Below are positions 20,229 to 31,848 of a DNA stretch of 35,304 nucleotides, piece after piece. Source of the stretch: Streptomycetaceae bacterium (GTDB lineage: Bacteria > Actinomycetota > Actinomycetes > Nanopelagicales > Nanopelagicaceae); contig QYPT01000032.1 of NCBI GenBank assembly GCA_007280125.1, positions 1-35,304 of the forward strand. The letters are read 5' to 3'. Positions within the stretch are counted from its first letter, which is position 1; the number at the start of each line of letters is the position of its first letter. The translations under genes and the position numbers were made by a program. Below the pieces are notes generated by a model that worked only from the letters and a program-made list of their open reading frames with translations, was not told where the DNA came from and made no database searches.

Positions 20229-21187
20229 GTAGCGAATTCGATTATTCAACAAAACTCGGTACTGCATGGTTTCCGACGCCACTTTTTACTGCAAGCGGAT
20301 GTGCAAGCTCCGGACGTGAATTAGCTCAATTTTTTCCTCTGAAAAGTATTGGCGCCGTTGTAACCAAATCGATAATGCTCAAACCACGTTTAGGACGCCC
20401 CACTCCACGTATGTCAGAAACGCCAAGTGGAATGCTAAATTCCATTGGATTACAAGGCCCCGGAATTGATGCGTTTATTGCTAACGATATTCCTTGGTTA
20501 GTGGAAAATAGCGCCCGCGTAGTTGTTTCCATTGCGGGAGAAACTGTTGAAGAATACGCAACGCTAGCAAGGCGCTTACGTTCGGTTCCAGGAATATCTG
20601 CTCTTGAAGTTAATATCTCCTGTCCTAATGTGGAAAATAGAGGGTTAGTTTTTGCATGCGATCTAGATAGTTCGCGTGCAGTTATTGATGGTGTTCGACG
20701 AATTATTGGCGGGGACTTGCCCATCATTGCCAAACTCTCACCAGATGTTACTGACATTGTTTCGATTGCCAAGGGCGTTGTCGATGCAGGAGCAGATGGA
20801 GTTGCACTCATTAACACTCTTTTAGGAATGGTTATAAATATCGACACGATGCGACCTCATTTGGGTGGGAAAACTGGTGGTCTTTCTGGTCCCGCCATCC
20901 GCCCTGTTGCCGTTCGTGCGATTTATCAAGTGCACGAAGCGATGCCAAAGCTACCTATTCTGGGTATGGGAGGAGTTCGCTCTGGCCGCGATGCTTTAGA
21001 GATGATTTTGGCTGGTGCCAGCGGAGTGAGCGTCGGTACTGCTTCCTTTGGAAATCCTCATGCGATTATTGATGTGCAAACAGAGCTAGAGAGACTTCTT
21101 CGAGAAAGAGGGTTTGATTCTTTGCGTTCTGCTGTTGGCTTTGCTCACCGAGATGCGCAAAGTGCGCCAGATGAGGATCTCTCGTGA
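20225..21187 (+). CDS. pyrD: Dihydroorotate dehydrogenase B, catalytic subunit (class 1B)
   Basis: FMN enzyme that oxidises dihydroorotate to orotate. The 320-residue TIM-barrel protein has the class 1 catalytic Cys in EVNISCPNVENRG, AKLSPDVTDI, the GGLSGPAIRP block and GMGGVRSGRDALE near the C-terminal FMN phosphate site. I chose the ATG at 20225, which overlaps the pyrK stop as ATGA. A GTG further upstream at 20189 would add residues unlike the family. Class 2 quinone-linked features such as an N-terminal membrane helix are absent. Confidence 0.96.
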   Translation: MSSEFDYSTKLGTAWFPTPLFTASGCASSGRELAQFFPLKSIGAVVTKSIMLKPRLGRPTPRMSETPSGMLNSIGLQGPGIDAFIANDIPWLVENSARVVVSIAGETVEEYATLARRLRSVPGISALEVNISCPNVENRGLVFACDLDSSRAVIDGVRRIIGGDLPIIAKLSPDVTDIVSIAKGVVDAGADGVALINTLLGMVINIDTMRPHLGGKTGGLSGPAIRPVAVRAIYQVHEAMPKLPILGMGGVRSGRDALEMILAGASGVSVGTASFGNPHAIIDVQTELERLLRERGFDSLRSAVGFAHRDAQSAPDEDLS

Positions 21188-21888
21188 AGTCAACATCTCC
21201 TATTATTTTGGCTGTAGATACCCCTGATTTTGAAACTGCATCAGCATGGATTCAAGCAACTCAGGGATCGGTTGCAGCCTATAAATTAGGTTTAGAATTT
21301 TTCGCCCGATTTGGATATGAAGGCGTGGCTCGACTACGAGAAATGACAGATGCTGATCTTTTTCTCGATTTAAAGTTGCATGACATTCCCAACACTGTGG
21401 CGGGAGCGGTGCGTCAAGTAGTTGGCTTAACACCGCGCTTTTTAACTGTTCACGCATCGGGCGGTAGAGCGATGATGCAGGCGGCAGTTGCAGAGGCGCC
21501 GAGCGTTGAGATCACTGCGGTTACGATTCTTACCTCCTTAGGTGATGCGGATTTGCAAGAAATTGGATTTGCTCATGGTGCACTTGATGCAGCAGTGAAA
21601 CTCGCGTCTTTAGCAAAAGAATCTGGCGCACGAGCTATTGTCTGTTCACCATTAGAGATTGCGGCGATTCGCCAAGCCGTGGGCCCGGAAATGACGATTA
21701 TTACGCCAGGTGTTAGGCCCTCAGATGAAGCAGGTGGGGATGACCAAACACGTATTATGAGTCCAGCGCAAGCGATGAACGCGGGCGCAACGTATTTAGT
21801 AATTGGACGGCCAATTACTCGTTTTTGGCCCCAAGGAGCACAAGCCTTAGCCTCCCGAGCGCAGGCGCTAGCCGATCAGGTTAAATAA
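21184..21888 (+). CDS. pyrF: Orotidine 5'-phosphate decarboxylase
   Basis: Decarboxylates OMP to UMP, the last de novo step. The 234-residue protein carries the active-site motif DLFLDLKLHDIPNTV, the phosphate-binding TPGVRPSDEAGGDDQ, and VIGRPITR. This is the short type 1 form, not the longer type 2 enzyme known from mycobacteria. It starts with GTG in a GTGA overlap with pyrD. pyrE, needed between PyrD and PyrF, is not in the window. Confidence 0.95.
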   Translation: MKSTSPIILAVDTPDFETASAWIQATQGSVAAYKLGLEFFARFGYEGVARLREMTDADLFLDLKLHDIPNTVAGAVRQVVGLTPRFLTVHASGGRAMMQAAVAEAPSVEITAVTILTSLGDADLQEIGFAHGALDAAVKLASLAKESGARAIVCSPLEIAAIRQAVGPEMTIITPGVRPSDEAGGDDQTRIMSPAQAMNAGATYLVIGRPITRFWPQGAQALASRAQALADQVK

Positions 21889-21915: not shown

Positions 21916-22809
21916 ATGGCGCTACCTCCTGTGTTGACTCCCGAGCAACGTGCCGCTGCATTGGCAAAAGCGACAACATCGCGTCGAACACGAGCCTTGG
22001 CAAAGAACAGAATTCGAGAAGGCTCCATCACTATTAGCGAGATTTTAGATTTGGCAACAAAAGATGAAGCTATTGCGAAAATGCGGGTACTCGAACTTCT
22101 CGAGTCCATTCCTGGCTTAGGTCGCATTAGAGCTCTCGCTATATTGGAGAAGCTGGGAATCTCCACCACGCGAAAACTGCAAGGCTTAGGAATTCATCAA
22201 CGCTCTGCATTGCGTGAGGAGTTCTCGCATTCTGTTACGACGACAAGGTCAGCGAGTCGAGGTCGCCTCATCGTCCTTTCGGGTCCTGGCGGTGTGGGTA
22301 AAAGTACGGTTGCACATGCGCTACGAAAGAGCAAAGAATTTTCAGTCAGCGTGTCTGCGACAACTCGCCAACCTCGAACGAGCGAGCGCGACGGTATTGA
22401 TTACTTCTTCATCTCTCAAGAAGAGTTCGATCGCCGCATTGCCGCCGATGAATTCTTGGAGTGGGCTGCATTTGCCGGTGCCAGATACGGAACACCTGCG
22501 GCAGCCGTGGAGGAGGCGCTATCTCGTGGCCGAAATGTCCTTCTTGAGATTGAGATTGAGGGGGCGCGACAAGTCCGCGCTCACAGTAGCGAAGCGATCT
22601 TGGTCTTTTTGCAGCCTCCCACGTGGGAGGACTTGGTCTCTCGACTTGAAGGTCGAGGATCTGATACCCCAGAACGTAGGGCTCAGCGCTTAGAACTGGC
22701 TCAAACAGAGCTGGCAGCGGCACAAGAGTTCGACATTGTCTTAGTCAACGATGAGGTCGAGAAGGTGGTCGATGCACTGCTATCCTTGGCCCGCACATCA
22801 CGCTCGTAA
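21916..22809 (+). CDS. gmk: Fusion of actinobacterial integration host factor (mIHF) and guanylate kinase
   Basis: One 297-residue frame holds two proteins that are normally separate neighbours. Residues 1 to about 105 match mIHF, the actinobacterial nucleoid DNA-binding protein. They start [19 protein letters not shown], contain the helix-turn-helix-like [19 protein letters not shown], and end [12 protein letters not shown]. Residues about 116-297 are a complete guanylate kinase, GMP to GDP with ATP: P-loop GPGGVGKS 123-130, [42 protein letters not shown]. No ATG, GTG or TTG occurs in frame between the TTG at 22210, still inside mIHF, and the P-loop, so separate translation of the kinase looks unlikely. 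The linker is short ([13 protein letters not shown]). Confidence 0.93.
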
Positions 22810-23107: not shown

Positions 23108-24295
23108 ATGTCACTGCCAGGCCGAGAAGTCATTCTTGGTATCGGTGGTGGCATTGCTGCATATAAGGCATGTGATCTTCTTCGGCGCTTACAAGACGAT
23201 GGTTTTCTCGTCACGGTAGTTCCAACACCAGCTGCTCTAAATTTTGTAGGTAGCGCTACGTGGGAGGCTCTTTCTGGAAGACCGGTTTACACGCAGGTGT
23301 GGGAAAATATTTCTACAGTTCCGCATGTAGCCTTAGCAAAAAATGCAAATTTTATTATTATCGCCCCGGCCACCGCTGACCTCATCGCACGATTAACCCA
23401 TGGACGAGCCGATGACTTGCTGACAAATGTGGTCCTATCAAGTGAGGCTCCAAAGATCCTTGTGCCAGCGATGCATCCTGCGATGTGGTACAACCCCGCA
23501 ACAATCGCAAATGTGGAGACGCTTCGATCGCGTGGTTTTCATATCATCGAACCAGATACGGGTCGGCTCACCGGCAGCGATAGCGGACAGGGTCGTTTCC
23601 CAGAAACGGCGCGAATTCTTGAAAGATTTCATGAGATTGTTGGAAAGAAAGCAGATTTATTGGGCAAGAGAATTCTCATATCTGCTGGAGGCACTCGAGA
23701 AGCGATCGATCCAGTGCGCTTCATAGGAAATCGTTCATCAGGTAAACAAGGATTTGCCATCGCTGCAGCGGCAGTGGCTCGAGGTGCCACTGTTCACTTG
23801 GTAGCGGCCAATTCATCGCTACCGGATATTGCAGGAGTGAGCGTTGAAAGAGTTGAGAGCACGCAGGAGATGGGAGAGGCTCTGGAACGCGAATTTCCAC
23901 ATAGCGACATTTTGATCATGAGCGCTGCTGTTGCCGATGCCCGACCAGTGACTTCCAGTAAAGAAAAGATTAAGAAAGACAATCTCCACGACATTGCTTT
24001 AGTTTCTAACCCCGACCTATTGGCGGGGCTGGCTAGCAAGAAGTCTTCTACGCAAAGAATCGTGGGTTTTGCTGCTGAAACTGCCGACTTGCTAGCTAAC
24101 GCGCAATCGAAATTGCTTGCCAAAGGCCTCGACCTTGTATATGTCAATGATGTTTCAGGGGGAGCAATCTTCGGCAGTGAAGATACTTCGGGGACCTTGA
24201 TTGCAAAGGATGGATCTTCTCTCAACTTTGTCGGTGTTTCAAAGGACACGCTTGCAAATGCCTTACTCGATCAGCTACTACTTCAGATAGGTTAA
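23108..24295 (+). CDS. coaBC: Bifunctional phosphopantothenoylcysteine decarboxylase / phosphopantothenate-cysteine ligase
   Basis: Catalyses two consecutive steps of coenzyme A synthesis. The N-terminal CoaC half (about 1-180) is an FMN flavoprotein with [12 protein letters not shown], the catalytic His in VPHVALAK, and [11 protein letters not shown]. Its substrate loop reads PAMHPAMW where many bacteria have PAMN, a variant also seen in other actinobacteria. The CoaB half (about 190-395) has [24 protein letters not shown] and the lysine motif KEKIKKD. Full family length; no defect seen. Confidence 0.95.
24288..24293 (+). promoter_or_regulatory. Possible -10 element (TAGGTT) for leaderless metK
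   Basis: TAGGTT lies in the last codons of coaBC and ends six bases before the metK ATG, identical in sequence and spacing to the element before mIHF-gmk. Confidence 0.35.
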
Positions 24296-25502: not shown

Positions 25503-27428
25503 GTGGTTACCCCACGGCCGTTAAAACTTCGAACACAGGTTGCTCGAAGTTCTTCTTTACCTGCGGCGGACCATCTACCAGTTGCGCGTGTTCTCGTGGA
25601 TACAGGTGTTTTCCATTTGGATTCTACATATGACTACTTGGTCCCTGAAATTCTGTCTCAGAGTGCACTAACCGGATGCAGAGTTGAAGTTGAATTCGGT
25701 CATGCTAAGCAGGAAGGCTTGGTTGTCGAAAGAATTTCAGAGAGTTACAATTCTGGTCCTCTTAAAATGATCTCAAAGGTTTTATCTCCACACGCAGTGG
25801 CAACGGACGAGACGCTTGAACTCTTTAACGATGTTGCTAATCGATGGGCAGGTGCTCCCTATGATGTTGTAAGAAGTGCGATTCCGCCTCGTGTGGCCCT
25901 TGTTGATAAAGAAAGTTTTCAACCTAGTGGCTCGACAATTGCAGTTCAACGAACTGCAACGCTCCCTACCGAATTGCATAAAAAGAGCGTTAGATCCTAT
26001 TGGCATTTACCGCCTTCTTTCTCTGCATCTCGAGCTCTGGTAGAACTAGCAATAGCACGCAGCAGATATGGCCAGGTACTTCTAGTTGTCCCTGATGAGC
26101 GAATGAGAATCGCAGTTGTTGCGGAACTCGAGAGAAACGGTTACCCATCTGATCGCGTAGCTCAATTAGACGGGCATACTTCGCGTTCGGATCGTTACCG
26201 GGACTATTTACGCATGACATATGCAACGGCTCGAATAGGAGTTGGATTACGAGGGTCAGTATTCACTCCTCTTGAAAATGGGTCTACGTTAATTGTCTTT
26301 AATGACTCATCCGAGCACTATTTCGAACCACGATCACCAGGGTGGAATGTTCGTGATGTGGCTTTGCTTCGAACTCGTAAATCTTTAGTGGACATTGTTT
26401 TTGTCGGATATTCACCTTCACTTGAATTAGGACGATTAATTGATTTGGGCTGGTTATCGCTGATAGAAAGTTCGTGCCGCATGAACATCAGGGCGGTTGA
26501 ACCAGTTCTAGGGGAGTTGCTTCCGTCAAAGGTTTTCCACGTTGTCCGCAAGGGCCTTAAGAGCGGGCCAGTGCTTTTTCTGGTTCCTCGAAAAGGATAC
26601 GCATCGGCTGTTTTATGTCGCAAATGCAGGAATATTTCGATCTGTTCGTGTGGTGGCCGTTTAGCTCAGAAAAATAAGAGCGCGGATCCGCACTGCGTAA
26701 TGTGCCATACCCTCTACCCGCATTGGCGATGTTCGTGGTGCGAAGGTGATGAAATTTATATTGCCGGACGGGGAATTGAGCGTTTTGCAGAAGAGATCGG
26801 CCGGGCATTTCCTAACTATCCAGTGATTGGTTCATCGGGCGAAAAGATACTCGCAAGTGTTGCAGATGTGCCATCGTTAGTTCTGGCTACACCTGGCTCC
26901 GTTCCTCTGGCTGAAAACGGATATTCAGTGGTGGTTTTACTTGAGGGCATTAAATTCTTTGGGCATACCGATATGAGAGCGAACGAAAATGCGAGGGAAG
27001 TATTCTTCTCCGCGGCTTCCTTTGTCAGACCAGAGGGCGAGATAGCGGTTGTTATTGACTCGTCGCATCCAATAGTTGCCGCGCTAACACGGTGGAATCC
27101 GGCGCCAATGATTCGAAAAGAGCTGGTCGAGCGAGATGAGTTGAGTCTTCCTCCTTTCTATCGATACATCACGATAGAAATTGATACTAAAGAGTCCATT
27201 GAGTTCAAAAATGGATTGGTTTTAGCGATATCTCACGGACGTATTCCTTCCTCTACGAAGATACTTGGACCGCATGAAGGCGAAGACTCCCGTTCTCGCA
27301 TTTCGCTCGCGGCACCGGTGTCAGAGGCTGAGGAGTTGGTCGCTTTCCTTCATGAATTTCAACGAAGACGCAACATTTCCCGCAAAGAGTTGCTCTATAT
27401 CCGAGTGGACCCGTATTCGCTTTCGTAG
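25503..27428 (+). CDS. priA: PriA-like primosomal protein N' lacking helicase ATPase motifs
   Basis: Homologue of the replication-restart protein PriA. The 641-residue protein keeps the N-terminal 3'-DNA-binding region (VARVLVDTGVFHLDSTYDYLVP). It has an intact eight-cysteine zinc cluster: C372, C375, C381, C383, C398, C401, C410, C413. A C-terminal domain follows. The Walker A GxTGSGKT is missing; the corresponding region reads ASRALVELAIA. Walker B DEEH is replaced by FNDSSEHYFEP. This matches the known actinobacterial PriA type, which is thought not to be a helicase. It starts with GTG twelve bases after metK. Confidence 0.9.
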   Translation: MVTPRPLKLRTQVARSSSLPAADHLPVARVLVDTGVFHLDSTYDYLVPEILSQSALTGCRVEVEFGHAKQEGLVVERISESYNSGPLKMISKVLSPHAVATDETLELFNDVANRWAGAPYDVVRSAIPPRVALVDKESFQPSGSTIAVQRTATLPTELHKKSVRSYWHLPPSFSASRALVELAIARSRYGQVLLVVPDERMRIAVVAELERNGYPSDRVAQLDGHTSRSDRYRDYLRMTYATARIGVGLRGSVFTPLENGSTLIVFNDSSEHYFEPRSPGWNVRDVALLRTRKSLVDIVFVGYSPSLELGRLIDLGWLSLIESSCRMNIRAVEPVLGELLPSKVFHVVRKGLKSGPVLFLVPRKGYASAVLCRKCRNISICSCGGRLAQKNKSADPHCVMCHTLYPHWRCSWCEGDEIYIAGRGIERFAEEIGRAFPNYPVIGSSGEKILASVADVPSLVLATPGSVPLAENGYSVVVLLEGIKFFGHTDMRANENAREVFFSAASFVRPEGEIAVVIDSSHPIVAALTRWNPAPMIRKELVERDELSLPPFYRYITIEIDTKESIEFKNGLVLAISHGRIPSSTKILGPHEGEDSRSRISLAAPVSEAEELVAFLHEFQRRRNISRKELLYIRVDPYSLS

Positions 27429-30975: not shown

Positions 30976-30981
30976 GGACGT

Positions 30982-31101
30982 TGTTCCGGGGGTCGGTGTA
31001 AATCCGAACCGGCGGTAAGAGTCCGCGACCCGATCACATCCAGTGGTCGGTTGACTTGGCGAAATTCCAAGACCGACAGTTAGAGTCTGGATAAAGGGAC
31101 A
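30982..31101 (+). promoter_or_regulatory. FMN riboswitch (RFN element)
   Basis: FMN-sensing aptamer upstream of a riboflavin transporter gene. The closing helix P1 pairs TGTTCC (30982-30987) with GGGACA (31096-31101). Conserved core segments are GGTCGG...CCGAACCGGCGGTAA, GTCCGCGACCC, CTTGG...CCAAG and GACCGACAGTTAGAGTCTGGAT. A variable hairpin CCGATCAC/GTGGTCGG lies between them. All expected helices of the class are present. FMN binding is expected to lower expression of the downstream gene. Confidence 0.95.
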
Positions 31102-31105
31102 CATT

Positions 31106-31132: not shown

Positions 31133-31154
31133 CTTGAGTGCTTTGCGTTTGCCC

Positions 31155-31178
31155 CCCTTTTGCATTTCTACGAAAGGG
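31155..31178 (+). promoter_or_regulatory. Potential Shine-Dalgarno-sequestering hairpin before ribM
   Basis: CCCTTT (31155-31160) can pair with AAAGGG (31173-31178), which is the ribosome binding site four bases before the ATG at 31183. This suggests translational control by the riboswitch. Confidence 0.5.
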
Positions 31179-31182
31179 AAAA

Positions 31183-31848
31183 ATGTCAGTTATCAATTGG
31201 TTACTCAATGAACAAGTTCACTTTGGCTCAAAGGCCATCTATTGGCGTGAAATTATCGGTGGCTCCTTCGGTCTTGCCAGTGCAATTCTTGGGATGCGCC
31301 GCAAAGTAAGCGCGTGGCCTATCGGCATTATCGGAGACGGACTACTTTTCACCGTCTTTCTCGGAGCGGTTTTCAATACCACTACAAACACCGCGAATTT
31401 CTACGGTCAAGCGGGTCGCAATCTACTGTTGATTATCGTCAGTGTTTACGGGTGGATTCGTTGGGTGGGTTTGCGATCAAAAGATGATTCTCGTCCTGCA
31501 GTGAGCCCTCGATGGACTACTCGAAACGAAAAGGCTTACTTGATTCCTGCGGTTATCGTTTTCTACGTTATCTCGTATTACATCTTTAAAGCCTTAGGTG
31601 AATCTGGGGCTTGGTTGCGCGTAGATACATGGATCTTCACCGGTACGGCGTTAGCAACGTATGGAATGAGTCGTGGCTACGTTGAATTCTGGTTGGTATG
31701 GATTGCTGTTGACGCCGTTGGAGTGCCTTTCGCATTCAAGAATGGCTATTACCCAACTGGCACCCTGTATGCGATTTATCTTCCCTTTGTGGTGTGGGGA
31801 TTCATTTCGTGGCTACGAATTAGCAAACTAGAGAAGGTTTTACGCTAA
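31183..31848 (+). CDS. ribM: PnuC-family riboflavin transporter (RibM/PnuX type)
   Basis: Predicted riboflavin uptake facilitator in the cytoplasmic membrane. The 221-residue protein has about seven hydrophobic segments (near 22-38, 43-63, 75-96, 118-136, 148-162, 167-184, 192-210). It has PnuC-like features such as NFYGQAGRNLLLIIVSVYGW and the C-terminal FKNGYYPTGTLYAIYLPF. Vitamin specificity comes from the FMN riboswitch upstream; PnuC itself carries nicotinamide riboside. I chose the ATG at 31183, which has AAAGGG in front. An in-frame upstream start at 31138 would put the ribosome-site hairpin inside the gene. Confidence 0.9.
   Translation: MSVINWLLNEQVHFGSKAIYWREIIGGSFGLASAILGMRRKVSAWPIGIIGDGLLFTVFLGAVFNTTTNTANFYGQAGRNLLLIIVSVYGWIRWVGLRSKDDSRPAVSPRWTTRNEKAYLIPAVIVFYVISYYIFKALGESGAWLRVDTWIFTGTALATYGMSRGYVEFWLVWIAVDAVGVPFAFKNGYYPTGTLYAIYLPFVVWGFISWLRISKLEKVLR

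Follow-up and report, generated by a model that had tools for sequence, protein, structure and literature searches.

A fusion of the genes for mIHF and guanylate kinase in Nanopelagicaceae and two other actinobacterial lineages

In many freshwater acI actinobacteria of the family Nanopelagicaceae, the gene for the nucleoid protein mIHF and the guanylate kinase gene gmk are found as one uninterrupted reading frame. Such a frame lies in the window, by which we mean the whole 35,304-nucleotide stretch of DNA that was analysed. With a probability of roughly 0.7, it would encode a bifunctional protein in which the sole detected mIHF and the sole detected guanylate kinase of the genome form two folded domains whose native ends are connected by a short flexible linker, the fused frame having arisen through the in-frame loss of the mihF stop codon. 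Both domains are already known; the new part is the recurrent two-gene fusion, which is well supported at the level of sequence and joins the gene of a nucleoid protein that is essential in M. tuberculosis to that of an essential nucleotide kinase in acI bacteria and in two other actinobacterial lineages. None of the papers searched mentions an mIHF-guanylate kinase fusion. The fused frame and its neighbours are arranged as follows:

21184..21888, + strand: pyrF (OMP decarboxylase), upstream neighbour; Pfam OMPdecase
21916..22809, + strand: fused mIHF-guanylate kinase ORF; 297 aa plus stop, ATG start
21928..22224, + strand: actinobacterial IHF (mIHF/sIHF) domain, residues 5-103; matches to NF041260 and to the sequences of PDB 4itq and 6tob
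22225..22260, + strand: linker, residues 104-115; no in-frame ATG, GTG or TTG; predicted disordered
22261..22791, + strand: guanylate kinase domain, residues 116-292, with a P-loop segment of 10 residues; TIGR03263
22839..23087, + strand: rpoZ (RNA polymerase omega), downstream neighbour; Pfam RNA_pol_Rpb6
23108..24295, + strand: coaBC, downstream of rpoZ; Pfam DFP and Flavoprotein

Profile searches against NCBIfam assigned residues 5-103 to actino_IHF (NF041260) with 118.2 bits, where the curated cut-off is 60 bits, and residues 116-292 to guanyl_kin (TIGR03263) with 217.4 bits (cut-off 160.45 bits). Pfam was in agreement, placing H2TH_5 at residues 34-103 and Guanylate_kin at 116-289. The mIHF half aligned with sIHF (4itq, 97 bits) from end to end and finishes at the native -EF terminus, the kinase half starts at the native first strand of guanylate kinase, and only about 10 residues are added at the join. 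In a fold comparison, the best matches of the kinase half were the M. tuberculosis Gmk structures 1z8f, 1znw and 1s4q, with 46-47% identity. Across 17 fused sequences, the P-loop and GMP-binding motifs (19 residues plus LLEI) are invariant or nearly so, and the basic mIHF residues R12, R23, R26, K30, K55, R57, R72 and R86 are invariant. An AlphaFold2 model built from 17 sequences (mean pLDDT 81, pTM 0.55) contained two folded domains and a linker disordered at residues 106-113 (pLDDT under 50), and at that pTM it gave no confident arrangement of the mIHF and kinase domains.

Purifying selection on each of the two domains is strong, with dN/dS values of about 0.05. In the nearest species pair the ratio was 0.058 for mIHF (dN 0.018, dS 0.31) and 0.054 for gmk, and in other unsaturated pairs it ranged from 0.01 to 0.08. 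The initial annotation of this stretch had proposed that one frame codes for both proteins, that the linker lacks an in-frame ATG, GTG or TTG before the P-loop and that both halves are intact. All of this was borne out, by the single 297-codon ORF with both profiles above their cut-offs, by the position of the last possible start codon ahead of the P-loop (a TTG at Leu99, within the mIHF domain) and by whole-domain profile matches together with the selection acting on each half.

The genome to which the window belongs, placed in Nanopelagicaceae through named relatives that include Candidatus Planktophila, is a draft of 1.86 Mb, 86% complete and divided into 128 contigs. Such a fragmented draft invites the suspicion that the join is an error of sequencing or assembly, but the chance of this is negligible: the same uninterrupted frame occurs in the nearest relative (G019, 97% identity, where the linker does contain an ATG) and in complete single-contig genomes of several Nanopelagicaceae species, which rules out the error that the initial annotation had itself raised. 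Another of its reservations, a separate mIHF gene elsewhere combined with a degenerate N-terminal domain at this locus, is likewise countered. The genome contains a single match to the fused protein and a single match to the mIHF model, no second mIHF or second guanylate kinase was detected in the 86% of it that is covered, and the N-terminal domain is not degenerate. Gene order around the fused ORF is the usual pyrF-mihF-gmk-rpoZ-coaBC-metK, and in M. tuberculosis mihF, gmk and rpoZ follow one another in the same order (PMC6155035). A PriA-like gene also lies downstream; its 641-aa product (window positions 25503-27428) matched only the Pfam model of the 3′ DNA-binding domain, and the helicase part is apparently degenerate. 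Further along the window, an FMN riboswitch (RF00050, 93 bits) is located at 30978-31105, upstream of the ORF at 31138-31848. mIHF is not alone among the nucleoid proteins of this genome, which also encodes an HU-family protein (G000:C110:25974-26240, L197) in an open frame of 213 codons, more than an ordinary HU takes up; Lsr2 gave no match in this 86%-complete assembly.

The initial annotation had left open whether the fusion belongs to one lineage. Mapping by profile and tree showed that it is widespread, although not universal, in Nanopelagicaceae and that it also occurs in two other lineages. Junction DNA was read in 60 loci and in named relatives, and ORF and profile served to type about 150 loci, a number that includes some overlapping copies. 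About 94 of the 131 Nanopelagicaceae genomes carry the fusion (two of these are cut off at contig ends), about 34 have separate mihF and gmk genes and three gave no match. The fused genera are g1, g2, g3, g4, g6, g7, g8, g11, g13, g15 and g16, and the split genera are g5, g9, g12, g14, g10 and g17. On a tree built from pyrF, rpoZ, coaBC and metK, g5, g9, g12 and g14 are basal, whereas g10 and g17 are nested within the crown group of fused genera, where g10 is the sister of the fused g8 with support of 100/98. The position of these two split genera within the crown group means that the fusion is not indispensable. Three state changes are required on this tree, for which repeated fusion and a return to separate genes in g10 and g17 account equally well. 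Constraining all fused Nanopelagicaceae to one clade was 25 log-likelihood units worse and was not rejected (AU p 0.11). The linker of g8 is longer than that of the other fused genera, which might mean that g8 acquired its fusion independently.

Separate genes in this family are very close to one another. A four-base overlap (ATGA) between mihF and gmk is common in the split genera, and in the split outgroups and basal genera together the junctions are four-base overlaps, an in-frame TAG followed by ATG, or short gaps. In some g17 species the ATG of gmk comes immediately after the TAG of mihF in the same frame, so that the loss of the stop codon alone would join the two genes. Full-length matches had also made g17 (G454, G458, G474, G490) and g14 (G033) candidates for fusion; in-frame stops showed them to be split.

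Beyond the family, a class-wide scan of 394 genomes with follow-up on selected families pointed to two further groups. In family f36, which is probably Microbacteriaceae, 19 of the 20 genomes sampled gave full-length matches, one further match was broken across contigs, and all ten loci that were read are fused; on the tree this family groups with Actinomyces and Schaalia. The other group is genus g103 of family f34 (G227, G260), whose sister genus g117 is split. At least three origins of the fusion are thus likely. Candidate fusions in Actinomyces and Schaalia (L060-L062) were discarded: the tblastn matches were full-length, but a stop codon separates the genes. Full-length matches containing a stop in f4 (Mycobacteriaceae-like), f19 (Streptomycetaceae-like) and elsewhere were taken as read-through of separate genes, and the two loci of these families that were read (G039 and G054) are both split. 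The survey also returned genomes with gmk in which mIHF was not detected, namely G040 and G067 (f5), G219, G268 and G308 (genera g67 and g114 of f34), G161 and G170. If confirmed, these would be natural lineages devoid of mIHF, although in M. tuberculosis this nucleoid protein is essential and highly abundant (PMC6155035).

The mIHF half of the window protein departs from the free protein in a motif of the H2TH region. Free mIHF reads (S/T)RRxRGLG there, and the window reads T85-R-K-L-Q-G-L-G (22168-22191, about residues 85-92), with RKLQ at the place of RRxR, a motif that is typical of free mIHF and no curated requirement of NF041260. Its arginines, Arg170, Arg171 and Arg173 in M. tuberculosis numbering, are reported to be DNA-binding. 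The fourth residue is never Arg in the fused forms that were read, where Q, A, G, K or M takes its place. The f36 proteins carry KRLG or KRIG, and those of g103 have a degenerate motif. For this reason the DNA binding of the fused protein, as judged from its residues, may be altered and not simply carried over. Split genes keep the Arg in basal Nanopelagicaceae, in Actinomyces and Schaalia and in most outgroups, whereas those of g10, g17, f39, f41 and part of f34 no longer have it. In the 60-row set, the fourth Arg is absent from all 28 fused genes and from 10 of the 32 separate ones, a difference that represents only three or four independent comparisons, too few to reach significance. This pattern of loss, seen also in several split lineages with small genomes, is a new observation, and the change in RRxR may have preceded the fusion.

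Taken together, the scenario that we favour would begin with a tightly spaced pair of separate mihF and gmk genes, in which the mihF stop codon was lost in frame to give a single ORF. The kinase half is predicted to phosphorylate GMP to GDP. The mIHF half, kept by selection, would most likely still sit on DNA, possibly with a changed affinity because the fourth-place Arg of RRxR is replaced. We infer that the cell produces a single chain, which remains intact and keeps both activities; if a single chain is produced, the two functions are necessarily supplied at a fixed 1:1 ratio, and this, rather than a dedicated signalling link, would be the main consequence of the fusion. The fused frame might instead yield two proteins, as the initial annotation had also considered, by internal initiation or by cleavage of the linker, with little functional change. 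The linker is predicted to be disordered, varies in sequence and length and could hence be cleaved, an in-frame ATG, GTG or TTG falls within codons -17 to -5 ahead of the P-loop in 47 of the 69 distinct fused Nanopelagicaceae sequences, and a protein as abundant as mIHF, among the top ten in M. tuberculosis (PMC6155035), is not obviously suited to a 1:1 ratio with a kinase. Nevertheless, the remaining 22 of these 69 sequences and eight of ten f36 sequences contain none of these codons in that interval, as is the case in the window, and neither a start position nor a linker motif is conserved across the fused genera. The lack of a conserved start codon and the existence of linkers with none at all make a two-protein output less likely, and we regard it as improbable.

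Less probable still is that the fusion is a selected regulatory device, which would either hold kinase activity at the nucleoid or let the kinase, by binding guanine nucleotides or ppGpp, govern how mIHF binds DNA. Tethering and nucleotide control, both raised in the initial annotation, are possible for such a protein, and the separate origin of the fusion in at least three lineages, the purifying selection on both domains and the change of the H2TH motif in every fused form agree with a selected device. We attach the same low likelihood to its evolutionary version, a recurrently evolved DNA-bound guanylate kinase that would convert GMP to GDP at the nucleoid, or whose guanine nucleotide or ppGpp binding would alter the DNA-binding half, the RRxR change lowering affinity to suit the fusion. 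However, no conserved linker was seen, the structural model gives no confident domain arrangement, g10 and g17 do without the fusion, the motif change is shared with split g10, g17, f39, f41 and part of f34, and ordinary loss of a stop codon between adjacent genes is enough to explain the join. It is even more doubtful that the mIHF half has become a vestigial N-terminal extension of the kinase that no longer binds DNA. The non-Arg fourth residue of RRxR in all fused forms would fit such decay, as would the strong divergence of the mIHF domain in f36 and g103 (54-79 bits, compared with 118 in the window), and the absence of a detected mIHF near gmk in f5, in g67 and g114 of f34, in G161 and in G170 implies that mIHF can be dispensable. 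Against it stand the dN/dS of about 0.05 in the window's clade, with the dN and dS of the nearest pair given above, and the invariance of the eight basic mIHF residues from R12 through R86 in the 17 fused sequences. The bifunctional protein is the reading that we retain. The closely related pairs g8 and g10, and g103 and g117, in each of which the first genus is fused and the second split, are natural comparisons for deciding whether the join affects chromosome organisation, nucleotide metabolism or neither. If it is neutral, it will clearly illustrate how neighbouring genes with little space between them become one when a stop codon is lost.

Comparison with known systems places each half of the window protein close to a characterised relative. 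Homology of the N-terminal half extends along its entire length to mIHF of M. tuberculosis (Rv1388, PDB 6tob) and to sIHF of Streptomyces coelicolor (SCO1480, PDB 4itq and 6bek), and the locus resembles theirs in having gmk and then rpoZ downstream (PMC6155035). Whereas free mIHF and sIHF end at about 105 aa, the window protein runs on into the kinase and carries RKLQ instead of RRxR. NCBI types the mIHF model NF041260 as a domain and not as a whole protein, which suggests that curators have met mIHF in longer proteins. With M. tuberculosis Gmk (Rv1389, PDB 1s4q, 1znw and 1z8f), the window protein shares a complete kinase domain, here the only Gmk detected, and it differs by bearing an N-terminal mIHF domain. 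The eukaryotic MAGUK proteins likewise join a guanylate kinase fold to other domains, in an unrelated fusion. Their guanylate kinase domains are mostly catalytically dead protein binders. Unlike them, the window kinase is the only Gmk detected and has kept its P-loop and substrate motifs.
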